Source of the DNA: a virus
Length of the DNA: 34,023 bases
Virus record (IMG/VR): IMGVR_UViG_3300025759_000339
Coordinates: 1 to 34,023 of that record
Direction: 5' to 3' (one strand)
The translations under genes and the position numbers were made by a program. The first letter of the stretch is position 1; each line of letters opens with the position of its first letter. The notes beneath the pieces were generated by a model that worked only from the letters and a program-made list of their open reading frames with translations, ran no database searches and was not told where the DNA came from. Below, piece after piece: positions 5,447 to 28,123 of the stretch.

Positions 5447-5455
5447 ATTATACCA
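5447..5455 (-). promoter_or_regulatory. Extended -10 promoter (TGGTATAAT), near-leaderless
   Basis: The minus strand reads TGGTATAAT, then ATAGGTCAAT, then the ATG of the fibre gene at 5436. With a start site about 7 nt after the hexamer, the mRNA leader would be about 4 nt. No -35 match was seen. Confidence 0.6.
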
Positions 5456-6303: not shown

Positions 6304-6313
6304 ATAAATAAAT

Positions 6314-6366
6314 AAGGGCGTGGAAATTCCAGCCCTTTGTGTCGTATATATAACTGGATTATACCA
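6314..6366 (-). promoter_or_regulatory. Promoter-hairpin leader upstream of the 280-aa fibre
   Basis: Minus strand: TGGTATAAT at 6358-6366, preceded by CG and followed by CC. About 14 nt after the expected start site comes a hairpin with stem AAGGGC/GCCCTT (6332-6337 with 6314-6319), a bulged G and an inner TGGA/TCCA stem. It is followed by ATTTATTTAT and the ATG at 6303. No Shine-Dalgarno site. Same architecture as the leaders at 14263, 21234 and 23627. Confidence 0.65.
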
Positions 6367-6381
6367 CGATTAAGCATGTTA

Positions 6382-9300
6382 TTAAAGGCTAGGGAGGCTA
6401 GGTAATGACGGTAATGATGGGAGTGATGGTAGGCCATCTAGGTCAATTTCTGCTGGTCGTTCTGCACGTTCACGCTCACTGGTTGTCATACCTGTCACAG
6501 CGTAATCAGACCAACCCAAGACATTAGCAATACCTTCTGTTGTATTTCCTTCTATAATGTCGGTAATACCGTCACCAATGGTTCGTGCTTGATTGACTGG
6601 AATACCAACTGCAGTTGCAGCAGAACCAAGTGCATCTAGTGCTTCTGCAAAGTCACCTGCGGTAATGTCTTCAAGTGATGTTTGTTTGAATGCACGTGCA
6701 AGCTCGCTACCAATCTCATTGAATGGTCCAAACTGAATATCCCAGACACGCATTTCAAGAGCCGATCGTATGATTGAGTCAATAACGCTACCAACAATAA
6801 AGATACCGTTGATAGAACCAAGAATACCAGCACGTAGATAGTCTTTCTGTGCTTCTTCGTCTAAACGACCAAAGTTTGAAACGTATTGGAATAACACTGG
6901 GAGAAGTACGTGATACACCATCATAATACGTGTCACTTTTGCAATGTTCTTTGGTGATTTACCACCTTTCTGGAATAGAGATCGGACTGCATTAAGTTCT
7001 TTTTGGTAGTACGCACGTGGTGATGACAACCATTGTGTGTATAGTTTTTGAAACGCATTACCACGTTGTATAAGCGCAAGACGTGAAACGTCTGATGATT
7101 GCTGTGTTTCTTGTGCAAACTCCTCGTAGGTGCTAATTGCCTCACTTCGTGATTTACCTTGTCGTAGTAGTTTGCGACGGTACGCCCAAGAACCAACTGC
7201 AATTGCGCCTTTATCTCCCATCTGCACCATGATCATAAGTGCATGTATAAATGATTGTTTCTTTTGGAATCGTTTAAAGCTGTCTTGTTGCATGGTGAAC
7301 CGCATATCACGCTCCATGTTGTTTGCACGCTCACGCAACATGGTACTTTCTGCATTCATAATACGTAGTGCTTTAATAGGATTTTTTGTGAAACTTAAAA
7401 CACCAGCAGTGAAGTCAACTGGATTAAGTTTTTCTAGGTATGCCATTGTAGAAATCATCTGCTTCACACCGATGGCTGGCTTTGCAGCAAGACCTCCAAT
7501 GGTGAATCCTTGTCGTGCTTTTTCTAACCATTTATCAAGTATTGAGTATTGTGCGGCAAAACGATTACCGTTTGTTGTAAAATCTTCAATGGTTAAGTCA
7601 ATTGCTTTCAATGTTTCAAAACCAAATTCTAGTTCAATAGACTTTCGTACGTCATTGTCAGAAAAGACTCGGTTGAATGTGCGGATACGATCACTCCATG
7701 CAATAAAGTAGTCAGTTTCTTTCATGTGGCGGTCATAAACCTCCAATGCGCCACGTAGTTTAATCTTGTTGACGTTACGAACACGTGTCTTCAAACTTCC
7801 AGTAGACATTGCAGCACGAACACTGCGGTCTTCATTGAATCCTGCAAAGAACTCGTCTGGATCAACCTTGTATCCTTCACGTGCAATTGGTGAATAGTTG
7901 TCTGTTTTTGGTAGGTTCACTCCATACAATGAGCGATAAACAGGGTTTAGGCGTGCATATTGTGTGTCGTATGATTCCATCAAGAGCTTTCCAAGCATCT
8001 TGTCTTGGCGTGTTAAGCCATTGACGATGGCATTTTTCATTTCTTGTGTGTACTTGTTACCAAGCGTAAAACTGTCATCAAGTGTTGGATCTTGAAATTC
8101 TTGATACCGTTTAATCATCTCGTCTTTAGTCATAACGAGCTCTACTTGCACACCATCAGTGTTGGTGAATGTTCCTAAGTTCACATCTTTTTTAAGATCA
8201 TTCATCTTGTTTATAACTTGCCACTGGTATGGCATGAGGACACGCTCAACACTTCCATCAAGGTTCGGAACTTTTACCGTACGTTGTTTAAGATTGTATG
8301 CACGTTGAATCATGTCCATCATCTCTACTGTGTGTTGGTGCTGGAGGTCTTTGTAACTATTTTCTTGTTCTCTAACAGCAAACAGTTCACCTAGCCTTTG
8401 GTTATTTACTGGCATATTAAAGTCAATGATATTCATCAACCCTTGCCAGTTGACGCTCCACGTTTTTCCAAGTGATTTCAATTGTTGCTTGAATTTCTTA
8501 TACCCTCGTATCTTTCGTGGTTCTGCAAACTCATCAACACCACGACCACCAGTGACACGTGATACAACTTCATCTTTGAGTTCCTGGATTTGTTCTTGTT
8601 GTGCTACTTTCTGGAGTTCATTGATCAAACGACCTTGCTCAAACAATGCCTCTAGTGTTTCTAGGGTACTTTCAAGCTCCTGGACTGACATATTATCCAA
8701 GTTGACAATAATGTTTAGCAGTTCGTTTTCTAGCACAACCTCACGTGGTGGTGCTTCTTTTTGGTAGTTTTGGATATTAGATTCCAAGCGTGCCATAGCT
8801 TGCTCTTGATTGAGTCGCATTACATTACGCAAGGTATCAAACACCTCTTGTATATCAGCAGTAAACCTTCCAACACGTTTACCGCCTTGTGTTCGTGTCT
8901 TCGTTCGTTTGAGAAGTGCTTTAATACGTGCTTTGAGTTCTCGTTTGTTTTGTGCTGTTTCCAAACTTTCAATACGAGCAACCACACGTGGTATTTCACG
9001 TGCCAGTTTATCTTGCGTATTGACGTTCTTTACTGTTCGTAGGAACTTTGCACGATCATTAGGTGTAAGTTCTGACCGTTCCAGGAGTTGAATGAGTTGT
9101 GTTTGTGCTTTTGCGACTTCCTGACGGCTTAAACGGATACCCTCTCGCATACCACGATTAAGTGTTTTAAGTTTATCTTTAAGGAGTGTTGCTTCTCGCT
9201 TACGAACAAACGGTGTTGCACGACGTTTGCTACCAACATTTTCGGTGAAGGCTTTTTGTTTTCTTGTTTGTGTACCCCGTGTTGTCCGTTGGCGTGTATT

Positions 9301-10896
9301 TTTCTCAACAAGTTCTAGGAGCTTAATACGACGCTCCTCGCCTCGTGTTTTCTCTATCTGGTCAAAGTCACGTAACATATCATTCAACACTTGTTCTTGT
9401 GCAAGCATTGGATCCATACGATTAAGTATTTCTTGTTCAACCAACCGAAGTAATCGTGCCTGACGTGAGCCACGTGGTTCTTGGTTGTTGTAGTACAGTT
9501 GTTCTACAACCTCAAAAAGGTCTTTGCTTCGTAAATCAGATGGTACAAAATCTGGGAATGATGATGGTTTTGCAGTGACTTGTAAGTCTGGACCATATCC
9601 AGTGAAGATACGTTCTCCTGGTTCTGATAGTTCAAACAACGTAAAGACTTCTGATTCTGCACGCTGAAAGTCCTCATTGATACGGTCAAGTTGTTCACGT
9701 GCTGCTTGAATCTGTTGCTCGTTATCTACTGGTGGTACTTGATCTATAGCGTCTGTCTGATCACTTGGGGTTGGTTGTCCGTCTGATACGTCTTCAATAG
9801 ACAATCCTGCTTGTGGGATTTTTACAGAACCTTGGAATACACGTCGCATCTCATTCACCATTGACCGCATCTCACTTGCAGCAATAACAGCATCACGTTC
9901 TGATACACCTGCTTTTTCTTGTAGTTCACGTGCGGTTTGTGTTTCTACTGATTGTGGTGAATATCCTGGAACAACAAGACCAACAAGGAATGATGGTATT
10001 GCGGTAGCTACAAACGTTTCGTATAACCCCTCAAATATCTCCTGTGAGCGATCTATTCCGTGTTTACGTACTAAGTTCTGCCAAACGGTTTGTAGCGACT
10101 CTGTGGCCGTTTCTACGCCTGATCGTGCAAACGCTTGTGTGATTCGTTTTGGTGCTAGTTTTGCAAACATAAAATTCAAACCAATCTTTTCCAACATAAA
10201 TGTTCCAATACCAGCTTGTGTGGCAATTCTTGCTGCTTCTGTTGGTGTTTTTCCGACTGTCCGTGCGTCGTTATAAAAGTCTGACGATTCAACACCTGAA
10301 AGGAATCCTGCTGCAATGTTAGGGTTGCGTGTTGCAAGAGCAATACCAAGAGCAGTAGCGATAGATACACCACCACTTGCAATAGTAAATGCGTATTCCT
10401 CTGCACTAGATAGACCTTCTTTATCGTCAAAAATCTTTGCTAGTTCTTTTTGCTCTTTGAGGTTAAGTTTGTTGATTTTTTCAAGAGCAAACGTGTTTGC
10501 TTTTCCTGTGAATTTGTTGAGTTCATCTTCACCTAAGTAATCATTGAGCTTTGAAAGAATGCTACTTGGATCATTGAGTGCTTTATTACGTGCATCTGCT
10601 ACTGCTGGTCCGAACATTGCCTCAAACCGATTACTGTCTTTGTCAGTTGCAGCACGAATACCTGTGTAGAATGCCTTTGGTACTTGTGTGGTAAAGAATG
10701 TTTTTGTAGCAGCAGTTGCACCACGAACCAATGGATCTGGTTCTTTCATAACTGGTGTAGATGTTTTTGTGCCAAAGTCTGTGGTGAAATCAAATGATGA
10801 TGGTTGATTGAGCTTTACAGAGAAATCAAAAAGATTACCCCTAGACGGAGATATTTTTTGAATATCTTTTTTCTTGTCATCATCACGTGGTGGCAT
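6382..10896 (-). CDS. Giant candidate ejection/internal virion protein, 1504 aa
   Basis: Largest gene in the window, in the position where podoviruses keep internal core/ejection proteins. The N-terminal ~110 residues are polar. Hydrophobic stretches occur near residues 165-205 (FTIASGGVSIATALGIALA) and around 300 (FVATAIPSFLVGLVVPG), with more near the C-terminus (IMMVYHVLLPVLFQYVSNFG and AGILGSINGIFIVGSVID). The middle, about 400-860, is highly charged and helical. The segment LSSPRAYYQKELNAVR plus the following membrane helices resembles the C-terminal domains of large polyvalent/internal phage proteins. It ends in five PSL tripeptides. Probably packaged in the head and ejected to form a trans-envelope conduit. 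No transglycosylase motif was found. Confidence 0.65.
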   Translation of the reverse strand: MPPRDDDKKKDIQKISPSRGNLFDFSVKLNQPSSFDFTTDFGTKTSTPVMKEPDPLVRGATAATKTFFTTQVPKAFYTGIRAATDKDSNRFEAMFGPAVADARNKALNDPSSILSKLNDYLGEDELNKFTGKANTFALEKINKLNLKEQKELAKIFDDKEGLSSAEEYAFTIASGGVSIATALGIALATRNPNIAAGFLSGVESSDFYNDARTVGKTPTEAARIATQAGIGTFMLEKIGLNFMFAKLAPKRITQAFARSGVETATESLQTVWQNLVRKHGIDRSQEIFEGLYETFVATAIPSFLVGLVVPGYSPQSVETQTARELQEKAGVSERDAVIAASEMRSMVNEMRRVFQGSVKIPQAGLSIEDVSDGQPTPSDQTDAIDQVPPVDNEQQIQAAREQLDRINEDFQRAESEVFTLFELSEPGERIFTGYGPDLQVTAKPSSFPDFVPSDLRSKDLFEVVEQLYYNNQEPRGSRQARLLRLVEQEILNRMDPMLAQEQVLNDMLRDFDQIEKTRGEERRIKLLELVEKNTRQRTTRGTQTRKQKAFTENVGSKRRATPFVRKREATLLKDKLKTLNRGMREGIRLSRQEVAKAQTQLIQLLERSELTPNDRAKFLRTVKNVNTQDKLAREIPRVVARIESLETAQNKRELKARIKALLKRTKTRTQGGKRVGRFTADIQEVFDTLRNVMRLNQEQAMARLESNIQNYQKEAPPREVVLENELLNIIVNLDNMSVQELESTLETLEALFEQGRLINELQKVAQQEQIQELKDEVVSRVTGGRGVDEFAEPRKIRGYKKFKQQLKSLGKTWSVNWQGLMNIIDFNMPVNNQRLGELFAVREQENSYKDLQHQHTVEMMDMIQRAYNLKQRTVKVPNLDGSVERVLMPYQWQVINKMNDLKKDVNLGTFTNTDGVQVELVMTKDEMIKRYQEFQDPTLDDSFTLGNKYTQEMKNAIVNGLTRQDKMLGKLLMESYDTQYARLNPVYRSLYGVNLPKTDNYSPIAREGYKVDPDEFFAGFNEDRSVRAAMSTGSLKTRVRNVNKIKLRGALEVYDRHMKETDYFIAWSDRIRTFNRVFSDNDVRKSIELEFGFETLKAIDLTIEDFTTNGNRFAAQYSILDKWLEKARQGFTIGGLAAKPAIGVKQMISTMAYLEKLNPVDFTAGVLSFTKNPIKALRIMNAESTMLRERANNMERDMRFTMQQDSFKRFQKKQSFIHALMIMVQMGDKGAIAVGSWAYRRKLLRQGKSRSEAISTYEEFAQETQQSSDVSRLALIQRGNAFQKLYTQWLSSPRAYYQKELNAVRSLFQKGGKSPKNIAKVTRIMMVYHVLLPVLFQYVSNFGRLDEEAQKDYLRAGILGSINGIFIVGSVIDSIIRSALEMRVWDIQFGPFNEIGSELARAFKQTSLEDITAGDFAEALDALGSAATAVGIPVNQARTIGDGITDIIEGNTTEGIANVLGWSDYAVTGMTTSERERAERPAEIDLDGLPSLPSLPSLPSLPSL
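6385..6429 (-). repeat. Five tandem PSL codon triplets at the C-terminus of the ejection protein
   Basis: The last 15 residues are (PSL)x5. The codons vary between units (CCA TCA CTC, CCA TCA TTA, CCG TCA TTA, CCT AGC CTC, CCT AGC CTT), so the repeat is kept at protein level rather than being fresh DNA slippage. Confidence 0.8.
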
Positions 10897-10900
10897 ATAA

Positions 10901-12448
10901 CTAACTTATTTGTTTGTAAATGTCTGAATCAGAGAACCCTGCTTTTTGTAGTTCTTTGACGCGTGTTTTGTACACACCTAGTATTTCATCTGCACGAGCA
11001 TTGAGATAGTCTTGCACATCGGTTTCACCAAGTCCTGGTCCAAACTTTGTGTCGTATCCTGCTTTGTTTGCTTCTTTTTTAAGTTCTGACTCTGACTTTG
11101 ACCCTTTAATATCTGCAATGATTGCAGGCTTAAACACATTGTCCATAAAATCATCAGTCAAAAAGTCGCCTCGTAGTTCGTCATCTGATGGCTCTGTTGG
11201 TTTTCGTGTTGCAGATGATTCACGTGCTAGGAATGTGAAGTAGTCCATGTTTTCTGGAATAAGTCCAAGACGTTTTGCGTCTTCGTACTGTCGCACATCA
11301 CCAGTAAGGTCTTGCGGTTCTTCTGTGGTGTATGAAAGGACTGAATCAATTTCCTCTAGGCTAATATCACCAATCTGGTTACCATTTTCGTCGTAGTTGA
11401 GCAGGCTGTATACGTCTGCAATGTCATCGTATCCTTGATCAATAATACCAAGAATTGCAGCTTCACGTGAGATTCGCTGGTTTGCTTCTTGAATCTTTTG
11501 TTGTTTTTGAAGACTTAGTTCTAGTTGTTGTGTGAGGAGTGTTCGTTGCTTTTCACGTGCACTATCAAGTGCATCAATCTTTTCTGTAATAATATCAAAG
11601 CGACGTGTACGCTCTGCATTTACCGCCTCTGCTATCAGTTGCGATTCTTCTGCAGCAAGTTCGTTTAAAAGTCGTACACCTTCTCGTTGTTCTGCCGAGA
11701 TAATACCTGTCGCAACTAATGGTGCGTATCGTGTTGTACCAAAACGTGCTCCAAAACGCTTGTGTTGCTGTACAAGGTTGTCTGTAAGTGTACGTGCCTC
11801 GTCATATAGTCCTTCGTATTTACGTTCAATTGCACGAACCAATGGGTCATCACGACCAACCATAGAAAGGACATCTTCCATCTCATCAATAACCTTGTTT
11901 TTCTCTTTTAAAACACGATCGTCGTAATCCTGGAGAATCTGAAAGGCGTTATCTTGGAGTGATTGTGAACCATCAACTGGAAAGAAAAGCCCTGTAGTTT
12001 CGTCATAACGGACATCGGCAATACTTGCACCTGCCGCCTGCACTTCATCAAACGTTAAACCACCAGAGCGTCGTGCTTCTTTTTCTGCATCTATATCTTC
12101 ACGTGCTTGCTGCGCTCGTTGTTCACGCATGGTACGTGACTCTTGTTGTGATTTGTTGAGCCGATCTTGTTCTTGACGTAGCCGATCAACTTTTTCACTT
12201 GTTCGTTGACGTTCGTTATCAGATGAGATGGTTAGTGGTTCATCTAAAAGGTCCATAGCACCTTGAATTTCAAGTTCATCAACTTTTTCTGTGTTGTACC
12301 CCATTTTACGCAAAGACTCTAAGGCCTGCTCACGTGGAGTATTACGTGTTGCTTCTATATCGCCAGTTGTTGTGTTGGTACGTGTACCTGCCGTCGTATC
12401 AATCACTTCCACTTGGCCTTCTGCGTTTGTTCGTTTAATCGTTGCCAT
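10901..12448 (-). CDS. Coiled-coil internal virion protein candidate, 515 aa
   Basis: Long, highly charged, mostly helical protein. Residues about 75-130 and 265-325 look like coiled coils (LRQEQDRLNKSQQESR and EKQRTLLTQQLELSLQKQQK). It ends only 4 nt before the start of the 1504-aa ejection protein, so the two are probably made together; podovirus ejection proteins usually come in sets encoded side by side. No enzyme motif and no membrane segment were seen. Role in the virion is inferred from order and composition only. Confidence 0.55.
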   Translation of the reverse strand: MATIKRTNAEGQVEVIDTTAGTRTNTTTGDIEATRNTPREQALESLRKMGYNTEKVDELEIQGAMDLLDEPLTISSDNERQRTSEKVDRLRQEQDRLNKSQQESRTMREQRAQQAREDIDAEKEARRSGGLTFDEVQAAGASIADVRYDETTGLFFPVDGSQSLQDNAFQILQDYDDRVLKEKNKVIDEMEDVLSMVGRDDPLVRAIERKYEGLYDEARTLTDNLVQQHKRFGARFGTTRYAPLVATGIISAEQREGVRLLNELAAEESQLIAEAVNAERTRRFDIITEKIDALDSAREKQRTLLTQQLELSLQKQQKIQEANQRISREAAILGIIDQGYDDIADVYSLLNYDENGNQIGDISLEEIDSVLSYTTEEPQDLTGDVRQYEDAKRLGLIPENMDYFTFLARESSATRKPTEPSDDELRGDFLTDDFMDNVFKPAIIADIKGSKSESELKKEANKAGYDTKFGPGLGETDVQDYLNARADEILGVYKTRVKELQKAGFSDSDIYKQIS

Positions 12449-12453
12449 AGATT

Positions 12454-14259
12454 CTAGGTGTAAGTGATAATCATTACTGCTCCATCAGCACCATCACCAC
12501 CTGCTCCTGATGTTCCAGAGCCAGCAGCTCCACCGCCACCACCTCCACCGTAGTTTCCACCGTCGCCACCATTGTTTCCGTTTCCACCACCACCAGAGCC
12601 ACCAGCTCCACCAAAGACTCCTGTAGCATTAGCACCATTTGCACCTGCGCCTGTTGAACGTGCACCACCTGCTGCAGCACCACCCATAATTGCACCTGTA
12701 CCACCTGCACCTCCTTCACGAGCTGTAGAGATGATACCTGCGCCACCTCCACCTCCACCAGCACCGTAGAGAGAGCTACCACCAAAGTAATTCACTGCAG
12801 ATGATGTTTGTCCACCACCTCCAGATCCACCGCCGTATTCTGCGTTATCTGCGGTACCTCCATCACCAAGTGCACCTTGATGTCCTACTCCTGCACCAGA
12901 TGATACAGAGAAACCGCCACCATCTCCACCGTCAGCAGAGCCAGTAGTTGTGTCTGGTGATTCCCCTAAATCACCACCGTATGCGGTTGCGAGTTGTGTT
13001 CCAGAATCTTCAACATAAGAGTCGCCACCAGCAGTACCATCGTTTCCACCACCGTTTGATGAAACACCTGCACCACCAGTACCTCCTGCACCAACATACA
13101 CATCTAAAGTTGCTCCTAAATCAGATGCTTGGTAAACACTTTCAGAGTAATGGCCACCGCCACCTCCTGCTCCACCGTTCTTTTGGTTTGAGCCGTTTGA
13201 GTCACGTGCACCTGATGCTCCTCCTCCACCACCACCAATAGCGATGATGCGTACTGTTTTTGCTGCGCTTGGTTTTGTCCATGTTGCTGGGTTTGCGGTT
13301 GGATCAGTGTATACCTGAACATCAGAAGCGTCTTGTGTAATGTATTTGTTTGTTGATGATGGAGTACCAAAACCTTCAAGAGCATCTTTTTCACGACCTG
13401 TTGGTGTTGATGAGCTGTGTCGCTCTACAAGAATATTTGTTGCGTCAATAGCAATACCGACTTGCGTTTTGATAGTTGGTGCTGATTCTGTCAATGCACC
13501 TGCTGTAGCCGATACATATTGTGCTGCACCTGGTGTCATTCCTGTTTGGTTGCTATCAAGACCAGCAATGAGTACACCGTTTGTGATAGCCGCACCGTCT
13601 GTACCTGCACCTTGTGCAATACCAATCTCTACGTCTTCTGCGGTTGCTGTCGCATCTGCGTCTGCTTTTTTCCATTCTTGGTCAGATGTATCAAAGTACA
13701 CAACATCACCTGCTGCGATAGTTTCTCCAGCAGTTGCCGCAATAACAGTACGGTCTTTTGATGTAGAACCACCTGATGCGCCGTCTACATAACTTTTACG
13801 TGCAAAATGGTCATCATTGGTTGGATCACCTGCGCTTGTCTTTGGGTTTGCTCCAAAGGTCCACTCCTGGCTGATGGTTTCTTCGTTTTCTTTGTTGGCA
13901 AAGTCATCATAGAAAGCAGGGCTATTTGAAATCACAAGCACACTTCCACCTGCATGTGACTTGGCAAATGTCGCTGATCCTGCGTATGAGGCATTTGGAT
14001 CTAGTCCACGTGTAACACCTGTGAGTGTGGCTTCTGCATTTGAGCCGTCTTGTGTGACTCCTGTAAAAGAGATAAATTCTTGCTTTGATCCACCTGGTTC
14101 AATAGTTGCGTATGCTTTACCACCAATGTCTGCTGTGGTGATTTCTGCATCATCACCAATGTTGGTGAATGAAGAAAGCACGATTGACGTGTCTGATGAC
14201 GTAATCGTTGACTTCAATCGGTATGTTTTGCCTCCTATGTATTTTCTGTTATCTGCCAT
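12454..14259 (-). CDS. Tail fibre/adhesin with glycine-rich C-terminal domain, 601 aa
   Basis: Residues 1-160 resemble a virion attachment region, with GTPTSSTN-like and DDHFARKSYVDG segments often seen in fibres. Residues about 160-300 look like a compact beta domain. From about residue 340 to the end the protein is extremely Gly-rich, with GGGGGG, GGAGGGGGHYSES, GGSGGGGQTSS, GGAGGSGGGGNGNNGGDGG and a final IITYT. Glycine-rich receptor-binding domains built from polyglycine-II helices are known in phage adhesins such as S16 gp38, and a related Gly-rich domain is common in fibres. It probably contacts the host. It is preceded by a promoter-hairpin leader. Confidence 0.7.
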   Translation of the reverse strand: MADNRKYIGGKTYRLKSTITSSDTSIVLSSFTNIGDDAEITTADIGGKAYATIEPGGSKQEFISFTGVTQDGSNAEATLTGVTRGLDPNASYAGSATFAKSHAGGSVLVISNSPAFYDDFANKENEETISQEWTFGANPKTSAGDPTNDDHFARKSYVDGASGGSTSKDRTVIAATAGETIAAGDVVYFDTSDQEWKKADADATATAEDVEIGIAQGAGTDGAAITNGVLIAGLDSNQTGMTPGAAQYVSATAGALTESAPTIKTQVGIAIDATNILVERHSSSTPTGREKDALEGFGTPSSTNKYITQDASDVQVYTDPTANPATWTKPSAAKTVRIIAIGGGGGGASGARDSNGSNQKNGGAGGGGGHYSESVYQASDLGATLDVYVGAGGTGGAGVSSNGGGNDGTAGGDSYVEDSGTQLATAYGGDLGESPDTTTGSADGGDGGGFSVSSGAGVGHQGALGDGGTADNAEYGGGSGGGGQTSSAVNYFGGSSLYGAGGGGGGAGIISTAREGGAGGTGAIMGGAAAGGARSTGAGANGANATGVFGGAGGSGGGGNGNNGGDGGNYGGGGGGGAAGSGTSGAGGDGADGAVMIITYT

Positions 14260-14262
14260 ATT

Positions 14263-14326
14263 TTAAGTAATAAAAGCTGGTGGTTAGCCAGCCCTTTGAT
14301 GTTATTTTGTTAGCTTGATTATACCA
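14263..14326 (-). promoter_or_regulatory. Promoter-hairpin leader upstream of the Gly-rich fibre
   Basis: Minus strand: CG, then TGGTATAAT (14318-14326), then a leader with stem GCTGG/CCAGC (14288-14292 with 14276-14280) followed by TTTTATTACTTAA, with ATG at 14259. The 19 bases 14263-14281 are identical to 23627-23645 in the leader before the 106-aa gene. A TTAACG at the right distance upstream could be a -35. Confidence 0.7.
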
Positions 14327-14342
14327 CGATATGTCGGTTTCG

Positions 14343-16139
14343 TTAATTCTTTTTAATCTTTACCCCTTGTGATTCTGACAAGAGTACGTTTGGCCCATGT
14401 GACAAGATTGACCATGATGGATCTTGCTGGTCGGTGGTGAACGTTACTTGTAGCTCGTAAAACTGTTGTTGTGTAAGTGTGTGAATAACACGGAACTTTG
14501 GATTTGTTGATGATGCAACTTGTCCACCAAGTGGCTCTGTACCCAGTGGTGCAGTACCAAGTGAGGCCGTCACACCACTTGTACCAAAGATAAGATCACT
14601 ATCGGCACCGTTTATAGTCCGTTGGATTGATGCGGTTGTACCGTCTAATTCAAAGTCATACAAAACGTCAAGCTGGGTATTGTCTGCAATATATCCTTCA
14701 ACATAGTAATCTTTAAATCGTTTGAGCATCGCTCGTTCTCCAAAGTTCCTGTAGGCAAACTTTGCCGTTGCGATAAATGATGCGTCATTGTCTGACGTAC
14801 CAGTAAACAATTTGTAAGTTTCTGGACTACCATTTGAATGACCATACAACTCACCACCGATAACAGAGAATTTACTAATACCCATCGTCTGCGGTGGTTG
14901 CCAGTACCCCCTGCTGTAATCGTAGATAAATACTTTATTTTCGTTTGGTGCTGATATGAATTGTTGGTTTCGGTAGTAGATTGTGTGTCCACCAGAAAAG
15001 TCAGTTGCGTTAAAGTCTGGCTTGATAGGATCTGATAACACACGTGATTGTGGTGTTTCAATGTTTTCTAAACGACCAAGTTCATCAAGTGAGGGTTCTT
15101 TTGTGACAAAAACTACTGCGTTTTTTGCTGTTGCGATAAGATCACGCCCTTCTGCTGCTTGGTTTGTACCTGTCTTTAGTTTGTTGACTAATACGGTTTC
15201 TGCAAGAGCTGATCCTACTTCAAGTTGGTCAAAACCAATCTCATACCAATCCCTGTCACCACCTGTAACGTACATAAAGCGTTCTTGCGGCTTCATTCCT
15301 GTTACCGTTGAGTCTAGTCTAAAACTTGCACCTTCACTTGGTAGTCGTGGGGAACTGAATGTGAAGTCGGTGAAGTCATCATTCGCTGACATATACATAA
15401 GTTGGTTTGTTTCACTTCCAACAAAAACGTGATTATCTAGTGTTTCAATAGAATCGTTATTGAACCCTGATGCTGGTGTGTTTGAGTTGGTTCGTACTGC
15501 CTGGAATGCTAGTGAGTCGGCAGCTTCACCTGATGGATCTGGTGTTACTCCAGTCAATGTTGTAGTACTTTCACCGCCTGTATAGGTGTATTCCGTACCA
15601 TTGATTACCACTTTACGTGTTCCTGACGTGAGGAAACGTTCATTAGCCCATGTGGTAGAGCCATTTTTGGTGATGGTGTTAGATGTTGCACTGGCAATTG
15701 TGGTGTATGCACCTGACCATTCGTAGATATTTGAATCACCAACAACAAACAAGAGCTTGTCTATACTCTCGCTGTTGTCCCAAAAAGACGTGAAATCAAA
15801 GTCAACATTGGTCCAACCGTCTTTCAACTTAGTCCATGTGACGTTACCATCACTATCAACGTATCTCCATTCAAGTTCATCGTCGTAACTTCGTAGATGG
15901 TGGGTAAGTTCTGATGTTGACGTTCCTGATGTTCTCCAATCATATGAGCTTTCAATACCAGTCGTTGCACTGCTACTTGCACCATCTAGTTCGTATCCAC
16001 CACGAACACTGACAATCTCACTGTCGTTAATGAGTACGTTTTGGCTACCATCAACAAGATACCGTGCGCTGGTGTTTGTTTTGTCTGGTTTTGTAACGTA
16101 TCCACTAAAGTTTTGAATTGTGCTGAATTGTCTAGCCAT
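14343..16139 (-). CDS. Tail nozzle / stabilisation-like protein, 598 aa
   Basis: The start (RQFSTIQNFSGYVTKPDKTN, then DGSQNVLINDSEIVSVRGGY) follows a pattern common in podovirus tail proteins that form the tube end, such as P22 gp10 and T7 gp12 types: a list of defined parameters, then a beta-propeller-like body. Repeated WY/DG-rich strands (KLLFVVGDSNIYEWSGAY, NHVFVGSETNQLMYMS, RFMYVTGGDRDWYEIGF, NKVFIYDYSRGYWQPP) fit propeller blades. It lies directly after the adaptor (8 nt). Assignment rests on fold-like pattern and gene order. Confidence 0.6.
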   Translation of the reverse strand: MARQFSTIQNFSGYVTKPDKTNTSARYLVDGSQNVLINDSEIVSVRGGYELDGASSSATTGIESSYDWRTSGTSTSELTHHLRSYDDELEWRYVDSDGNVTWTKLKDGWTNVDFDFTSFWDNSESIDKLLFVVGDSNIYEWSGAYTTIASATSNTITKNGSTTWANERFLTSGTRKVVINGTEYTYTGGESTTTLTGVTPDPSGEAADSLAFQAVRTNSNTPASGFNNDSIETLDNHVFVGSETNQLMYMSANDDFTDFTFSSPRLPSEGASFRLDSTVTGMKPQERFMYVTGGDRDWYEIGFDQLEVGSALAETVLVNKLKTGTNQAAEGRDLIATAKNAVVFVTKEPSLDELGRLENIETPQSRVLSDPIKPDFNATDFSGGHTIYYRNQQFISAPNENKVFIYDYSRGYWQPPQTMGISKFSVIGGELYGHSNGSPETYKLFTGTSDNDASFIATAKFAYRNFGERAMLKRFKDYYVEGYIADNTQLDVLYDFELDGTTASIQRTINGADSDLIFGTSGVTASLGTAPLGTEPLGGQVASSTNPKFRVIHTLTQQQFYELQVTFTTDQQDPSWSILSHGPNVLLSESQGVKIKKN

Positions 16140-16147
16140 GTGGGTAG

Positions 16148-17314: not shown

Positions 17315-17318
17315 ACGT

Positions 17319-17726
17319 TTAGAGGTTTAGTTCTGTGACAAAGAGGTGTGTTGATGTTGCGTTTTCTGTGACTGCTCGTATTGATCCTGTGTAGAGATTG
17401 TCTTGGTCAATTTCAAAACATTCGTTTGGATCAATAACAGCATCTGCTGATGTTGTTGCAGTAAACGGTACATCATTGAATGAAAGGTATACGCTTTCTG
17501 TTGCTTGGTCATTACACAATGATACGTGGAATCGTCGTGATGATGTTGCAACTACTCGCAGTGATTCTTGTGGGCCAGTTGTTGCAAGTGTTGATGATGC
17601 AGTTCGTACTGATGGTGCATCTACAAGAAGTCGTGCTGCATCTGCCTTGTTAAGTGATAGAACACTCACGATAGCGATGATAACAATAACGACAACTCCA
17701 ACAATAATTTTTGTATTTTTGTTCAT
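17319..17726 (-). CDS. Membrane-anchored small protein in the head-tail gap, 135 aa
   Basis: Residues 6-25 are one hydrophobic segment (IIVGVVVIVIIAIVSVLSL) after a basic start, giving an N-terminal anchor or uncleaved signal. The rest is a beta-like domain rich in T and S, with TSS, ATTSAD and ATST, and two cysteines (C71, C103) that could form a disulfide. This is odd for a gene set between capsid and adaptor: no cytoplasmic virion protein needs an anchor. It could be a minor virion surface protein or a protein shown on the host envelope. No family recognised. Confidence 0.6.
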   Translation of the reverse strand: MNKNTKIIVGVVVIVIIAIVSVLSLNKADAARLLVDAPSVRTASSTLATTGPQESLRVVATSSRRFHVSLCNDQATESVYLSFNDVPFTATTSADAVIDPNECFEIDQDNLYTGSIRAVTENATSTHLFVTELNL

Positions 17727-17764
17727 AAGTTTTAATTAGTTACTAATGGGCTACCCACCCAAGT

Positions 17765-17800
17765 CTTGCCCTCCTGGATCTTCAGTTCACGAAGGGCAAG
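17765..17800 (-). other. Hairpin between the two membrane-anchored genes
   Basis: CTTGCCCT (17765-17772) pairs perfectly with AGGGCAAG (17793-17800), enclosing 20 nt. No U-run follows on the minus strand, so it is not a classical terminator; it may be a processing or stability element in the 89-nt gap. Confidence 0.5.
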
Positions 17801-17815
17801 GTTGACTGGCTAGGT

Positions 17816-18160
17816 TTACAAACCTGCACATGTACCGTATGTCCAGTATGCAACACCTGGTGTGGTAGTTGCTGATAGACGAATTGCGGTATCTGTTGAG
17901 GTTGCGTAGGTATCAATACAACCAACTTCAATTGATGATGTTGCTGTATTTGATGTTGTAACGGTTAGATTTTGTCCTGCTGGGAGTGTGATTGCTCCAC
18001 TTCCATCAATGATGGTTGTTGAGTCAACTTTGTACCCGTCAGTTACATCTAAACTGTCAAAGTTGGTGTCGCCACCGAGTCCACTTCCACCAGCCGATCC
18101 TGAAACGAGTGCCACTGCAAGTGCAATGATACTGATTCCAATTGCTATATTTTCTTTCAT
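17816..18160 (-). CDS. Membrane-anchored small protein after the capsid gene, 114 aa
   Basis: Residues 4-20 form a hydrophobic segment (IAIGISIIALAVALVSG) followed by a glycine-rich hinge (GSAGGSGLGG) and a beta-like domain with T/S-rich runs (TTSNTATSSIEV, TYATSTDTAI, SATTTPG). C81 and C111 may pair. Same plan as the 135-aa neighbour: N-terminal anchor, small beta domain, one cysteine pair, so the two may be ancient paralogues or partners. It directly follows the major capsid gene. Confidence 0.6.
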   Translation of the reverse strand: MKENIAIGISIIALAVALVSGSAGGSGLGGDTNFDSLDVTDGYKVDSTTIIDGSGAITLPAGQNLTVTTSNTATSSIEVGCIDTYATSTDTAIRLSATTTPGVAYWTYGTCAGL

Positions 18161-18189
18161 AAAGCTAGTTTCAGTTAGTTAGTAGTGGG

Positions 18190-19131
18190 TTAGACAGTTC
18201 CGTTTGAACCAACGATTCCTTCCCAAGAAACTGCTGTAACAACTTCTCGGAAACGAGCCTTGTAAGTGTAGCGATCTGCATCATCTGTGTCTGGTGAGAC
18301 CATAGATGTTGTAAGACCTACACGTACGTAACGTCGTACTGTGTGATGTCGTGAAACAACGTAGTAAGACGTGTCTGCGTTTGAGTTAGCACTGTTGTAT
18401 GTGCTGTCTAGGTAAGCTGATGTACCAACTACCATTCCTGGATAAATCCGTGAGAAGTAGTTTAGGTTGTTATTACCAGTACCTGTTTGTAGTTCTGACT
18501 CTGCAATTTCAATTGCATCTGGAAAATCAGATGGTGATACAAGAAGACCAACTACGTTGTGTCCTCCTACTTCACCGTCTTGTGCCTTTTGCAGTCGTAG
18601 TGACTTTACAACTGTTTCTAGTCCTGCTGCTGAAAGTGCTGCAGTTTCTAGGTTATCAATTGTGTCACCGTTCATTGCGGTGTGTGAGTTAGAAATAAGT
18701 GCTGCACCGTCAGATGTTGTTACACCTGAAAATGCGTCACCGTATGAGTTAGAAAATGCGTGTTTGTCACGTGATGTTCGTGCACGTAGACCAAACTGTT
18801 CTGCTGTTTCTGCAACTACAGAGTGCATTTCGTCTTCATAAAACTCAACTGGAATCTTGATAGATTTTTTGTAGTTGAGCACTGTGTGTGTTTTTTGATT
18901 TCCTGTTCGGATTGTTGCCTGTTTGATTTCTTCTTCTTCGGCGTGTTCCTCAAAGAGACCTGGCCCTTTGTATTCTTCGGTGATAACTGCCTGTCGGTCA
19001 GTTGTCATTTGTTTGAAGAACACTGGGTTTGAAGCAAGTACCTCTTGTGGTTCTTGCTCACGGTCAAACTCTGGATACACAACCTCATCAATGGCTGTCT
19101 TTACCAAACTTGGGTTTAGACCTGTATTCAT
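18190..19131 (-). CDS. Major capsid protein candidate, 313 aa
   Basis: Position (scaffold, decoration-like protein, then this) and size fit an HK97-fold coat protein. Features include a helical, charged N-arm with EEHAEEEEIKQATIRTGNQK, a spine-like helix VVAETAEQFGLRARTSRDKH and a P-domain-like strand run through GLLVSPSDFPDAIEIAESEL to RRYVRVGLTTSM. The C-terminus is rich in strands (YKARFREVVTAVSW). HK97 fold is inferred from order and pattern, not from an identified motif. Start ATG at 19131 has no Shine-Dalgarno site. Confidence 0.7.
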   Translation of the reverse strand: MNTGLNPSLVKTAIDEVVYPEFDREQEPQEVLASNPVFFKQMTTDRQAVITEEYKGPGLFEEHAEEEEIKQATIRTGNQKTHTVLNYKKSIKIPVEFYEDEMHSVVAETAEQFGLRARTSRDKHAFSNSYGDAFSGVTTSDGAALISNSHTAMNGDTIDNLETAALSAAGLETVVKSLRLQKAQDGEVGGHNVVGLLVSPSDFPDAIEIAESELQTGTGNNNLNYFSRIYPGMVVGTSAYLDSTYNSANSNADTSYYVVSRHHTVRRYVRVGLTTSMVSPDTDDADRYTYKARFREVVTAVSWEGIVGSNGTV

Positions 19132-19163
19132 GATTGATTAGGTTAAGTTAATAAGTTAATGGA

Positions 19164-19676
19164 TTAGTCCATTGTTTGACCAGTCAATGGTGCTGCTTCG
19201 GTTGCAAGTGCGTGTACAAGAACATCAAGTGTTCCACGTACAATATCACCAGCAACAATCTTTAGACCGTGTACGTTTGGATCATCACCTTCGTTTTCGT
19301 CAATGGTGAATACTCCTGCTGTAAGGTCAAATGCTACGTAATCTCCAAGTAGACCAAGCAATTCTGCGTCTGTATCCATGTTGCCTGGTGTGGTTGCTTT
19401 ACCACGAAGTTCTGTAAGTCCTGGAACGATTGAAAGGTATGATACCTGTCCATCTGCTGTTGAAGTTTCAGTTGATTCTGCTGCTGCAACACCAAGAAAT
19501 TCGTCAGTTCCTACTTCGGGATCACCTGTAGCACAAAGGATTGCGAAGTTACCGCTTTTCTTTAGCGGTTCTCCAGCCTTCAAAGTTGCAGAAGTTCCTG
19601 ACGTTGTACGGTCATCAACTTTTGCCACTCGGACTGGCCCTCGCCCTTTGATTACTTCAATATCTCCTACTGCCAT
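19164..19676 (-). CDS. Capsid decoration/stabilisation-like protein, 170 aa
   Basis: Beta-rich, acidic protein with GDIEVIKGRGPVRVAKVD, GEPLKKSGNFAILCATGDPEV, FLGVAAAEST and DVLVHALATEAAP. This pattern of short strands with Ala/Gly/Val resembles the small capsid-associated proteins that sit beside the coat gene in many phages. It lies between scaffold and coat genes, a common slot for decoration proteins. No family can be named with certainty. Confidence 0.5.
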   Translation of the reverse strand: MAVGDIEVIKGRGPVRVAKVDDRTTSGTSATLKAGEPLKKSGNFAILCATGDPEVGTDEFLGVAAAESTETSTADGQVSYLSIVPGLTELRGKATTPGNMDTDAELLGLLGDYVAFDLTAGVFTIDENEGDDPNVHGLKIVAGDIVRGTLDVLVHALATEAAPLTGQTMD

Positions 19677-19715
19677 GTTGGTGTGGAATTAAGTTGTTAA
19701 TGCCACACAAGTAGT

Positions 19716-20450
19716 TTATGCCTCTGGAATACGCTCGTATTGCCCTTGTTCGTTTATACGAACATTTTTACCAAGAACAAGATTGTTCTTTTCAAGGAAA
19801 CGACGATCAGCGTCAGAAAGTGGTTGTTGTTCCTTTTTCTGTGGCTTTTTCTGTCCTGATCCTTGTGGTTGGGCCTTTGTTGTCTCTGACAACTTTGAGC
19901 GTTGACGTTCTCGTATGATGCCGTTGATACGTGTTCTGTTTGCAATTGCGTGAGCAACTTCAATATCAGCACGTACATCACCTGTTGGGCGTATGCTGTT
20001 CTCGTAGTGATACAAGATAGCTTCTGCTTCTTCTGGTGATCCAGCAAGTGAGCTGGCTTCGTCTTGTGCAAGTCGCATTGATTGTTGCAACTGTTGTTGC
20101 ATCATGCGCTCGTCAAGCATGCGTTCTACGTCGTCTTTGGTAAGAGAACTTTCACCATATTCGTCAACAAACTTTTGGCTTGTTTCTTCTGATGATTGAC
20201 TCTTGCCTTCAACCTGCTCACGATAGCGTTGTGCTGCGGATTCCGCTTTCTCACGTCGCTTTCGTTCTGCCTCCAGTTCGGCTTTGTAATCTACTTGTTG
20301 TGGTTCTGTTGCTTCCTCATCAGTTGAATCTGCCTCTTGTGAAGCATCTTGTGATTCATCTGTAGATTCTGCGTCTTCTGCAGGCGAGGCCTCCTGCTGG
20401 GTTGGGTTGTCGGTTTGTTCAACCTGTTCGTTTTTCTCCTCTTGTGTCAT
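19716..20450 (-). CDS. Scaffolding protein candidate, 244 aa
   Basis: Very acidic N-terminus (residues 1-50 rich in E, D, S and Q), then a long charged helix with EAERKRREKAESAAQRYREQ, then a basic Gln/Lys-rich C-terminal region (QKKPQKKEQQ). Disordered acidic head, coiled-coil middle and positively charged tail is the usual layout for phage scaffold proteins that template procapsid assembly, and the gene directly precedes the decoration and coat genes. The leader holds a structured RNA element at 20533-20603. Confidence 0.75.
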   Translation of the reverse strand: MTQEEKNEQVEQTDNPTQQEASPAEDAESTDESQDASQEADSTDEEATEPQQVDYKAELEAERKRREKAESAAQRYREQVEGKSQSSEETSQKFVDEYGESSLTKDDVERMLDERMMQQQLQQSMRLAQDEASSLAGSPEEAEAILYHYENSIRPTGDVRADIEVAHAIANRTRINGIIRERQRSKLSETTKAQPQGSGQKKPQKKEQQPLSDADRRFLEKNNLVLGKNVRINEQGQYERIPEA

Positions 20451-20532
20451 GTGTATATCTCTACTTTTTCGCTAGAGCAACGAGATCTTAATGTATTTAG
20501 TGTATCCAGACTTCAATAGGCTCTGGCAACCC

Positions 20533-20603
20533 GAATCCGTTAAGGATTCTGTGGAACGCCCATACCGACTCCTGCATTGCAGGCTAGACGCTCCGCAGAA
20601 CCC
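20533..20603 (-). promoter_or_regulatory. Candidate bistable RNA element ahead of the scaffold gene
   Basis: On the minus strand GGGTTCTGCGGA (20592-20603) pairs with TCCACAGAATCC (20544-20555) and extends by four more pairs (20556-20559 with 20588-20591); the only mismatch is one C-A, with G-U wobbles on this strand. An inner hairpin CCTGC/GCAGG lies at 20571-20583. An alternative stem GAATCC/GGATTC (20533-20538 with 20544-20549) uses half of the first stem, so the two folds compete. It starts directly after the stop codon of the 111-aa gene. No U-run follows. Confidence 0.5.
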
Positions 20604-20939
20604 TTAAAGGTTCTTGATTCGTTTTAAGACATCTTGATATAGATCGTTTGTGTACAACATGACTTTCCCAACAATGAGGTCGTCATTGTCTTTTGATTTG
20701 AGAAACCCACGTTCTACCGCACGATACTCCGCTTCTGCATAAAGAATCGGCCAAAGTGATGATTCGTATATAACAGTTGCTTGTTCTTTGAGAGCTTTGA
20801 TTTGATCTTCGCTCAATGGTTTGTTGCGAAAATATATCCTTCCGTCTTTACCTTTGCGCAATATGTCTTTTGCGGTGACTCCTTTGTAGAGTCCACGTAT
20901 GACGATGTTAATGAGCAAGTTATAAAGTCGGTTTTTCAT
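20604..20939 (-). CDS. Hypothetical protein, 111 aa
   Basis: Mostly helical, moderately charged protein with ITRKGKDGRIYFRNKPLSED-like middle and a helical end with YTNDLYQDVLKRIKN. Not recognised. It lies between the portal region and the scaffold and is followed by the structured leader. It could be a small head-assembly protein or a head-tail joining protein; nothing in the sequence decides. Confidence 0.5.
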   Translation of the reverse strand: MKNRLYNLLINIVIRGLYKGVTAKDILRKGKDGRIYFRNKPLSEDQIKALKEQATVIYESSLWPILYAEAEYRAVERGFLKSKDNDDLIVGKVMLYTNDLYQDVLKRIKNL

Positions 20940-20951
20940 AACGATGTTCTA

Positions 20952-21212
20952 TTACTTTTTCTTTTTAGATGTCTTCTTCTTTGTGAGTCGCTTGGTCACT
21001 TCTGGTTTTAGTTCCTCTGGAACACCAATGTACGTTGCTGGTTCACCAACAATCGCACCACCAAGTGCAAGGTATGCTTCCTTCACTGATTTTTTGTACA
21101 GTGGGTTTGCAACAACATCTCCTTTTTTGTCACGGATTGTTTCCTTTCGGACTGACTCCTGTGCTGCGAGATATTTTGCCTTGTTTGCGTAGTTGAAATC
21201 TGCGTCTGACAT
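20952..21212 (-). CDS. Hypothetical basic-tailed protein, 86 aa
   Basis: Short protein with a helical first half and a strongly basic end (TKRLTKKKTSKKKK). Not recognised. It is the only gene I checked with a fair ribosome-binding site (AAGGA about 7 nt before the ATG). It is preceded by the longest promoter-hairpin leader (21234-21284). It lies between portal and the 111-aa gene, in a head-assembly context; the basic tail suggests nucleic acid contact. Confidence 0.5.
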   Translation of the reverse strand: MSDADFNYANKAKYLAAQESVRKETIRDKKGDVVANPLYKKSVKEAYLALGGAIVGEPATYIGVPEELKPEVTKRLTKKKTSKKKK

Positions 21213-21233
21213 ATTGTTTCCTTAGTTAGTAAA

Positions 21234-21284
21234 AAAGAGCCGATGGCATTACTGCCGTCAGCTCTTTGTAGCTAGATTATACCA
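21234..21284 (-). promoter_or_regulatory. Promoter-hairpin leader upstream of the 86-aa gene; terminator-like
   Basis: Minus strand: TGGTATAAT (21276-21284), then a hairpin starting almost at the expected +1. Its stem is AAAGAGC/GCTCTTT (21261-21267 with 21234-21240) plus a 7-bp inner stem GACGGCA/TGCCATC around a GTAA loop. A run of six T follows, then TTAGTTAG, with ATG at 21212. By itself this hairpin is a textbook intrinsic terminator, yet it sits between promoter and gene. Confidence 0.7.
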
Positions 21285-21306
21285 CAGAATTACAACTCTA
21301 TGTAGT

Positions 21307-23289
21307 CTATTGACCAAGTAGAGCGTTCAAACTATTGCTTCCTGTGGCTTGTTGTACGAGAGAAGATAATTGTGGTTCTTGTTGTCCACCAAGAATATCT
21401 TGCACACCAGCTTCTTGTGCCTTCTTCATGTATTTATCAACATCTCCTTTAGCGTAATTCTTGACCAAGAAGTCACGTGTCACAGCTTCTGGGTTTGTAA
21501 ATGGATTGTTAATCATACGATCATATCCTTCAAGATCAAAGGCTTTTTCAAGAGCCATACTTCGTGGGAATATCTGATCTGCTTTGACAATGGCTTTGTA
21601 TGAGCGTGATGCAAACTTATATGGATTTGCTTCAATGATTGAGATGTTACTTTCAAGACCGCCTGCTTCTGCAAAAAGACGCTTTTCACGCTTTTCTTTT
21701 TGGTCTTCTGACATTCGTGCACCAATAAGATCTTCCTTGAACCGTACAATTTTCTTAATCTTTCGGCCATCTTCATCTTCATCATCAAGAATGAATTGTC
21801 GGAATTTCATTCTACCGTTTGAATCTAATAACTCATCAAGCTGTGCAACGCTTTGGTGTTGGAGTACAACATCTGACAAGAGTTGTCCTACCTCTACCGT
21901 TGCTTCTGCAATCATGCGACCAAAGATTGATGCGGTAATTTTTGCATTTTCTTCAATACGAGAAACCTCAAATGCTGTTCGGTCTCCTGATGTAGCAGTT
22001 CCACCACGAATAGGGTCTTGTGTTGAGTCGTTAATAGACCGTTCTAACTCCTGTACGGCTGCGTAACCAGAGTTTAGGTTATTTCCAACGTTTAGTGCGT
22101 CAACACGTGTTTCTTCCTCTAAATTCGTTACAGCACCAGGTAAGATAACACTTGAATCAACCATATCACCACCTGATGTAATCACTGGTGGCATAACCGA
22201 TAGAGCTGTGCCATCAAGCACCATGCGCCACATACGATCTAGTAAGTCTTGTTCTGGACCAACTTTATCTACTGCTGATTTGTAGTAGTAAAAACGTTTT
22301 GCATCTAATGGTTCAAAACCAAACTTTGCTTCACCATATACCGGCACTGATACTGGTTCACCTGTGTTGTCTAGAATGTAACGTCGGTGTTTGATCATGT
22401 TGTCATTGACATCTCCATCACCAAGATACACACCGTTGATAAAGTTCACTTCAACATCACCTTGTCGGTTTTGATAGTTGACATGCTCAACCAGTGATTG
22501 ATTTTCCTCGTCGTATTGTTGATAGAACTGTCCTTTATCGTCGTTATAAAAGATTTTTACACCTGGAGTGACGAACTTAAAGTTGTCGTGATCACCAAAA
22601 AGTGCCTTTGCTTCTGCATAATCAATGAATCGTCGTCGGATACGGAATCGTTGTTTTGGGTGGTAATACTCGTAAATGTTACTAATCAACATCTCATCTA
22701 CTGGAATGTTGCCGTATTTTACCCCTGAAAGTACCTCATCTAGTATTTCCTTGTAGGTAATATCACCGTTTTCTAGGCGTACTTTGATTGATTGTGTTGC
22801 TTCTACGTAGTCAACACTAAAGTAAGCACATGGGTTGACCAATGCTGATATAACACCAAACAGGTGTGAGATCTCATAATCACTGTTTTCAATGTTCCAT
22901 TTGACCATTGTGCGCATGAGATTTGCTGCTTCCTGGTCTTGATTGTCATCAGAATCTTGTGCAAAGAACTGTGGATAGACAATCTGTGCGGTCATTTGTG
23001 CAGCCATACCAATAACACGCTGACGTGAGATTGGTCGTGTTGTATTTGCATGCCATTTTTCCTCGTAGTTGTCTGATTGTGGCTCTACGTATGAGTTGAA
23101 ACGTTTTTGGTTTTGCTCTGACTTGGTGAGAACGTTGACATCATTAAACTCTGCATACTGCTGGTTTTGAATGTTGTCTCCGATTTGGTAATCATCACGA
23201 ATCTGTTGAGTAAAGACACGCACATCTTCTGGTGGCATGTACGCACTTGGATCGTGTTTGTCTTTATTAAACTCTTTTGGGCTTAACAT
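21307..23289 (-). CDS. Portal protein, 660 aa
   Basis: Size, acidic/helical composition and position between TerL and scaffold fit the dodecameric portal of podoviruses. Typical elements include a helix-rich N-terminus with QNQKRFNSYVEPQSDNYEEK and RQRVIGMAAQMTAQIVYPQF, a central strand-rich region (RFRIRRRFIDYAEAKALFG, FNGVYLGDGD), and a C-terminal stem/crown region with helices EFEVSRIEENAKITASIFGR and EVGQLLSDVVLQHQSVAQLD. The last ~40 residues are Gln/Ser-rich (QQEPQLSSLVQQATGSNS), as in several P22-like portals. It forms the DNA gate and binds TerL and the adaptor. Confidence 0.75.
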   Translation of the reverse strand: MLSPKEFNKDKHDPSAYMPPEDVRVFTQQIRDDYQIGDNIQNQQYAEFNDVNVLTKSEQNQKRFNSYVEPQSDNYEEKWHANTTRPISRQRVIGMAAQMTAQIVYPQFFAQDSDDNQDQEAANLMRTMVKWNIENSDYEISHLFGVISALVNPCAYFSVDYVEATQSIKVRLENGDITYKEILDEVLSGVKYGNIPVDEMLISNIYEYYHPKQRFRIRRRFIDYAEAKALFGDHDNFKFVTPGVKIFYNDDKGQFYQQYDEENQSLVEHVNYQNRQGDVEVNFINGVYLGDGDVNDNMIKHRRYILDNTGEPVSVPVYGEAKFGFEPLDAKRFYYYKSAVDKVGPEQDLLDRMWRMVLDGTALSVMPPVITSGGDMVDSSVILPGAVTNLEEETRVDALNVGNNLNSGYAAVQELERSINDSTQDPIRGGTATSGDRTAFEVSRIEENAKITASIFGRMIAEATVEVGQLLSDVVLQHQSVAQLDELLDSNGRMKFRQFILDDEDEDGRKIKKIVRFKEDLIGARMSEDQKEKREKRLFAEAGGLESNISIIEANPYKFASRSYKAIVKADQIFPRSMALEKAFDLEGYDRMINNPFTNPEAVTRDFLVKNYAKGDVDKYMKKAQEAGVQDILGGQQEPQLSSLVQQATGSNSLNALLGQ

Positions 23290-23294
23290 AGTTG

Positions 23295-23615
23295 TTATCG
23301 TCTATTGTATCGTCGTGATTGCTGTCGGTATCGTCGGTTCTTTGCTTCTTCTTCTCGGAAACGACCTTCAACAACGTCTGGAACAAAGTTTACTGCTTTC
23401 TTGATTGCTTTCTTTACGCTACTTGCAGCCCTTCGTCGTGCTTCACCACGTTTACTCATACGTGATTCCATTCGTTTTTTAGCTGTTTTTTCTTTTTCTA
23501 GTTTGTTTACGTGACCTGCAAGTTTATTCATGGTCATGGTTGTACGTGGTCCTGCTGACACACGTCGTGCTGATTGTCGCTTGCTATTTCGTAGTCTGTT
23601 TACTCCTGATGGCAT
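23295..23615 (-). CDS. Highly basic protein between TerL and portal, 106 aa
   Basis: About a third of the residues are Lys or Arg (RRRAASSVKKAIKKAV, ending RRYRQQSRRYNRR); almost no hydrophobic core. Predicted largely helical or disordered. Could bind DNA or RNA in the packaging vertex, or be a small head protein; no family recognised. It is preceded by the promoter-hairpin leader at 23627-23680 and followed by portal 5 nt downstream. Confidence 0.5.
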   Translation of the reverse strand: MPSGVNRLRNSKRQSARRVSAGPRTTMTMNKLAGHVNKLEKEKTAKKRMESRMSKRGEARRRAASSVKKAIKKAVNFVPDVVEGRFREEEAKNRRYRQQSRRYNRR

Positions 23616-23626
23616 AATAATTTCTA

Positions 23627-23680
23627 TTAAGTAATAAAAGCTGGTCGGTAAACCAGCTCTTGTATGCAGTGATTATACCA
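23627..23680 (-). promoter_or_regulatory. Promoter-hairpin leader upstream of the 106-aa gene
   Basis: Minus strand: CG, then TGGTATAAT (23672-23680), then AGCTGGT/ACCAGCT perfect 7-bp stem (23652-23658 with 23639-23645) with a 6-nt loop, then TTTTATTACTTAA and, 12 nt on, the ATG at 23615. The 19 nt 23627-23645 are identical to the leader at 14263-14281. It lies directly downstream of the TerL stop at 23685. Confidence 0.7.
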
Positions 23681-26258: not shown

Positions 26259-28108
<1,850 letters not shown>

Positions 28109-28114
28109 ACGCTT

Positions 28115-28123
28115 ATTATATCA
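28115..28123 (-). promoter_or_regulatory. Leaderless promoter for the chaperonin operon
   Basis: TGATATAAT on the minus strand at 28115-28123, followed by AAGCGT and ATG at 28108. With +1 about 7 nt after the hexamer, transcription would start on the A of ATG. The TGA is also the stop codon of the 78-aa gene, so one sequence ends translation and supplies the TG of the extended -10. Confidence 0.65.

Follow-up and report, generated by a model that had tools for sequence, protein, structure and literature searches.

Promoter-hairpin cassettes as candidate boundaries between transcription units in the structural arm of an uncultivated phage

Four short cassettes in the minus-strand structural arm of a 34,023-base virus record (34 kb, hereafter the window) probably act as composite boundaries between transcription units. 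In each of them a predicted extended -10 promoter of the sigma-70 type sits just past the stop codon of the upstream gene, and a terminator-like hairpin with a U-run lies within the first ~40 nt of the predicted transcript, ahead of the next start codon. At this hairpin, polymerase that reads in from upstream would be partly released, the promoter just ahead of it would restart transcription, and the same hairpin would attenuate the new transcript, so that the output of each module would be set locally. Between about 29.1 kb and 0.2 kb the genes are found mainly on the minus strand and include those for terminase, portal, head, tail and lysis functions.

Architecture of the cassettes and their promoters

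The extended -10 box TGGTATAAT occurs six times on the minus (coding) strand of the window and not at all on the plus strand, while dinucleotide shuffles give an expectation of 0.28 for both strands together. The variant TGATATAAT is present once on the minus strand and is likewise absent from the plus strand. By its sequence TGGTATAAT is a sigma-70-like extended -10 element, and the sites are predicted to fire as promoters. Four of the seven extended -10 leaders carry the cassette, in which TGGTATAAT is followed by a hairpin of 9-14 bp, a U-rich run and ATG, with 54-63 nt between the -10 box and the ATG. All four copies listed in an earlier note on this DNA are present and read on the minus strand, and they adjoin terminase, portal, head and tail genes.

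This arrangement can be read directly from the four sites (all minus strand; d is a terminator score discussed below). Cassette 1 begins 4 nt past the stop codon of the terminase large subunit with the box at 23672..23680, continues with hairpin AAGAGCTGGTTTACCGACCAGCTTTT and U-run TTTTATTACTT at 23629..23661 (fold -14.1 kcal/mol, z -5.0, d +3.4) and leads to ATG 23615 of a 106-aa gene. Cassette 2 lies past the portal-like gene and comprises the box at 21276..21284, hairpin AAAGAGCTGACGGCAGTAATGCCATCGGCTCTTT with T6 at 21234..21267 (-21.0 kcal/mol, z -5.1, d +22) and ATG 21212, which is preceded by AAGGA. Cassette 3, with its box at 14318..14326 and hairpin AAGGGCTGGCTAACCACCAGCTTTT plus U-run at 14265..14296 (-10.6 kcal/mol, z -2.5, d -10.8), precedes a 601-aa tail-fibre-like gene starting at ATG 14259, and cassette 4, with its box at 6358..6366 and hairpin AAGGGCTGGAATTTCCACGCCCTT plus U-rich run ATTTATTTAT at 6304..6337 (-13.7 kcal/mol, z -4.6, d -3.3), precedes a 280-aa gene starting at ATG 6303. 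The 19 identical bases that the earlier note had noticed in two of the copies were found to be ACCAGCTTTTATTACTTAA.

Three further extended -10 boxes, which were absent from the earlier list, have no hairpin. The TGATATAAT box at 28115..28123 is located 6 nt ahead of ATG 28108, for which a leaderless start is predicted; a TGGTATAAT box at 5447..5455 stands 10 nt ahead of ATG 5436 (predicted near-leaderless), and another at 2058..2066 is followed by a plain 26-nt leader and ATG 2031 (all minus strand). We also noticed that TGNTATAAT is preceded by CG at five of the seven window sites (2066, 6366, 14326, 23680 and 28123; consensus TCGTGRTATAAT) versus 5 of 138 host sites, and the CG-extended -10 is perhaps a phage-specific promoter feature.

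Hairpins as predicted terminators

Each cassette combines a GC-rich stem with a directly adjoining U-rich run above chance, which is the sequence signature of an intrinsic terminator. Termination strength was predicted by a d'Aubenton-Carafa-type score d in our own implementation, by which cassette 2 is strong and clearly above threshold, cassette 1 is at the threshold and cassettes 4 and 3 are below it. The 21234 copy, previously called a textbook terminator, deserves that description and is the sole strong one of the four. When the four leaders were shuffled (200 mononucleotide shuffles), d never exceeded 0, and the 95th percentile was -50. A chance origin was rejected: TGGTATAAT occurs 6 times versus 0.28 expected, leader z-scores range from -2.5 to -5.1, and positive d was absent from all 200 shuffles. 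Only one other notable same-strand terminator was seen among the intergenic hairpins of the arm, at about 434-406, where the arm ends. It speaks against the boundary function that three of the four scores are borderline or sub-threshold, and that a terminator placed right after a promoter would lower the output of that promoter, with no antiterminator gene recognised.

Hairpins in a 5' UTR could instead stabilise the mRNA or keep the region of the start codon open, with termination being incidental. We regard this as unlikely. Such a role would suit hairpins that are close to the 5' end and separated from the ATG by an A/U-rich stretch, as well as the leader hairpins without U-run in the relatives L027 (5180) and L045 (5190). 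It would also suit the scarcity of Shine-Dalgarno sequences described in the earlier note, which holds for three of the four leaders and breaks down at the 21234 copy with its Shine-Dalgarno-like AAGGA. With +1 assumed to lie 7 nt past the -10 box, the unpaired stretch ahead of the stem measures 2-4 nt for cassettes 1 and 2 and some 14-15 nt for cassettes 3 and 4. A spacing of 2-15 nt (about 22 in L021) is too variable for shielding, while the contact between stem and U-run is constant, and the genes behind the boxes at 28123 and 5455 of the same phage manage without any leader. Variable distance together with constant contact favours intrinsic termination over protection of the 5' end. Among the functions suggested earlier, the stopping of upstream transcripts and attenuation fit, and 5'-end protection fits poorly, given the 2-15 unpaired nt ahead of the stem.

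The 5' arm AAAGRGCTG is common, exactly or almost, to all four copies. Pairing is kept although the 3' arms differ, with one double-sided change (GGGC/GCCC versus GAGC/GCUC) that suggests slight covariation among what are paralogous copies only. A MAFFT alignment of the four cassettes misplaced the 21234 stem, and Rfam 15 yielded no RNA family above gathering score in the window. The shared arm would be expected if the inverted repeats were DNA operators binding a regulator of the promoters. This is extremely improbable, as the spacing between the arms varies widely among the copies and the U-run is present on one side only. We rank both the operator and the 5'-protection explanations below a boundary function.

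Contrast with likely hosts and recurrence in relatives

Binning makes a CPR (Patescibacteria) host plausible for this phage group, since the related record L033 (39.4 kb) also turns up in a MAG with the title Candidatus Microgenomatus (L066); the hosts of this uncultivated lineage are probably of Microgenomates type. As host sample we used 1.84 Mb comprising the bin of L066, four L066 relatives and the bin of L065. In this candidate host DNA the distance from the -10 box to ATG peaks sharply at 6-7 nt, and TGNTATAAT-N6-ATG was counted 136 times versus 3 in the reversed control across 20 Microgenomates-type genomes. Genes with an ATG 6-10 nt past an extended -10 box were noted in relatives of G023 as well as in the window. 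Leaderless starts are therefore likely to be widespread in these hosts, and the hairpin leaders of 54-63 nt would then be an extra rather than a requirement.

Outside long ORFs the host sample contains 85 extended -10 leaders, of which 2 have a terminator behind the promoter and 21 a terminator ahead of it. The promoter-first order is found in 4 of 7 leaders in the window versus 2 of 85 in the hosts (Fisher p = 0.0002, a value descriptive of the contrast and no independent discovery, as the four cassettes prompted the host test). With nine phage records pooled, 8 of 34 leaders are promoter-first (p = 0.0007 versus hosts), one of the eight, at 10061 in L033's record, being doubtful by eye. The order of promoter, terminator and start codon is not habitual in the likely hosts, where terminators usually precede promoters.

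This contrast bears on whether the composites merely reflect ordinary crowding, in which the terminator of the upstream gene and the promoter of the downstream gene fall into the same short gap, in an order without function. Intergenic spaces are indeed short, composites come and go between relatives, and both orders occur in the T4-type phage RB49. All four window copies nevertheless have one and the same order, whereas the 85 host leaders include 2 that are promoter-first and 21 that are terminator-first, and we give crowding a small chance of being the explanation.

The terminase is closest to those of Flavobacterium phage 11b and Bacteroides phages (identity 42% or less), and the best relatives sought reached 53% identity for terminase and 44% for the major capsid protein. 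Single-sequence search returned no portal relatives, while a portal alignment led to 14 loci; 11 were examined, one of them being L013's record again. No promoter-hairpin-U leader was present at the portal junctions of these 11 loci (ten beyond L013's record), and DNA pattern scans of viral contigs with the core of the shared 19-mer and with the cassette found no cassette elsewhere. L013's record has the best synteny over the whole arm and carries no cassette, its junctions measuring only 27 nt (terminase/portal) and 16 nt (counterpart of cassette 3). The absence from this most syntenic record and from ten further portal loci argues against the boundary function.

Parts of the arrangement recur in other relatives. 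L033's record and L027 have extended -10 boxes at both the terminase/portal and the portal/head junction, and in L005, L015, L038 and L045 such a box lies immediately downstream of terminase. The full order of promoter, hairpin with U-run and ATG is present in L033's record (26824 and 38007) and in L021 (2630), and L023's record has the same order after terminase with a plain TATAAT. The composite-bearing relatives have stems that do not resemble the window's. The check proposed earlier, whether stems are conserved in relatives, gave a divided result: promoter positions and the composite recur in several lineages, but the stems are not shared and L013's record lacks cassettes. The predicted promoter position is often kept, and the hairpin composite is sporadic and genome-specific. 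In L033's record (G010) a small hairpin with the pattern YTTACGAR, different from the window stems, precedes the main stem in the leaders at 26824, 29516 and 38007; cassettes thus seem to arise by copying inside one genome and not by exchange between genomes.

A terminator behind its own promoter would make sense if it could be bypassed, with the early leader loading a phage or host factor so that locally started polymerases pass the hairpin and those reading through from upstream stop. Such conditional antitermination has precedents in lambda late transcription and the HK022 put RNA, and the extra YTTACGAR hairpin before the terminator in L033's record could be accommodated by it. Pfam and PHROGs recognise no antiterminator gene in the window and no leader element is conserved across the phages, so that we consider this very unlikely.

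Two further features of these genomes were noted. A long structured RNA lies upstream of the capsid genes, in the gap that separates a ~111-aa gene from a scaffold-like gene (minus strand 20451-20612 of the window; L084:2486-2688; L027:7959-8140), with z of about -2.8 to -4.3 in the window, -6.2 in L013's record and -5.6 in L027; L034 also has a long stem at its scaffold-gene gap (about 15070-15190). In L027 and the window one segment can pair upstream or downstream in an attenuator-like manner, and the L027 copy contains a textbook terminator. No Rfam match was obtained for this RNA, which could alternatively be an RNase III site. Furthermore, a GroEL-type chaperonin (Cpn60) is encoded at 26259-27800 of the window, and the records of L013, L033 and L027 have one too, immediately ahead of the packaging genes.

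Comparison with known systems

In phage lambda the single late promoter PR' is followed by the intrinsic terminator tR' in its own, longer leader and is controlled by the Q antiterminator. The window cassettes resemble PR'-tR' in that a late phage promoter is followed by a predicted intrinsic terminator within its own leader, and differ in being four, with short leaders and no recognised Q-like gene. T7 class III transcripts carry 5' leader hairpins, and a hairpin near the 5' end of structural-gene mRNAs is the feature in common; bacterial-type promoters, a variable distance from +1 and the U-run past the stem set the window apart.

The closest resemblance is to the promoter early stem loops (PeSLs) of T4-type phages (Arbiol 2010 and Comeau 2014, as cited in PMC4503421, which also cites a paper on composite promoter-terminator motifs); our comparison is based on the sequences of RB49 and 44RR and on such citing papers. 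Like PeSLs, the window cassettes pair a predicted sigma-70-like promoter with a terminator-like stem-loop in gaps between genes, and several copies are present in the genome. PeSL stem-loops are effective transcription terminators, and by score the window has one strong stem, one at the threshold and two below it. PeSLs are further characterised by recombination between copies that shuffles gene modules; the window offers here the 19 bases common to two of its copies. Escherichia phage RB49 shows the same order as the window, with promoter, hairpin and U-run, RBS and ATG, at 20558, 14492 and 9421-9489. The window is always promoter-first, whereas the T4-type genomes often have the terminator first (RB49 at 34481 and 45322; exclusively so in a 30-kb stretch of 44RR). 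Moreover, the window promoters are recognised by an extended -10 and have no clear -35, the 34-kb record with its terminase affinities elsewhere is not T4-type (Straboviridae-like), and the cassettes lie in the structural arm, while PeSLs are found among early, non-essential genes in hyperplastic regions. The likeness to PeSLs raised in the earlier note holds for the anatomy. The T4-type genome and the early hyperplastic location are lacking, and we therefore do not file the cassettes as PeSLs; judged from sequence they are a PeSL-like variant in an unrelated phage. An independent origin, in phages of Patescibacteria-like hosts, of PeSL-like promoter-first boundaries that work by conditional antitermination and are gained, lost and re-copied within each genome seems quite unlikely to us.

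Should the elements function as predicted, this uncultivated phage lineage would set the output of its structural modules by local start-and-stop elements with an insulating and level-setting role, in an order that its likely hosts rarely use. Promoter-terminator composites would then extend beyond T4-type phages as compact boundary parts. The parts themselves are familiar and their arrangement is unusual, with similar composites known from T4-type phages.
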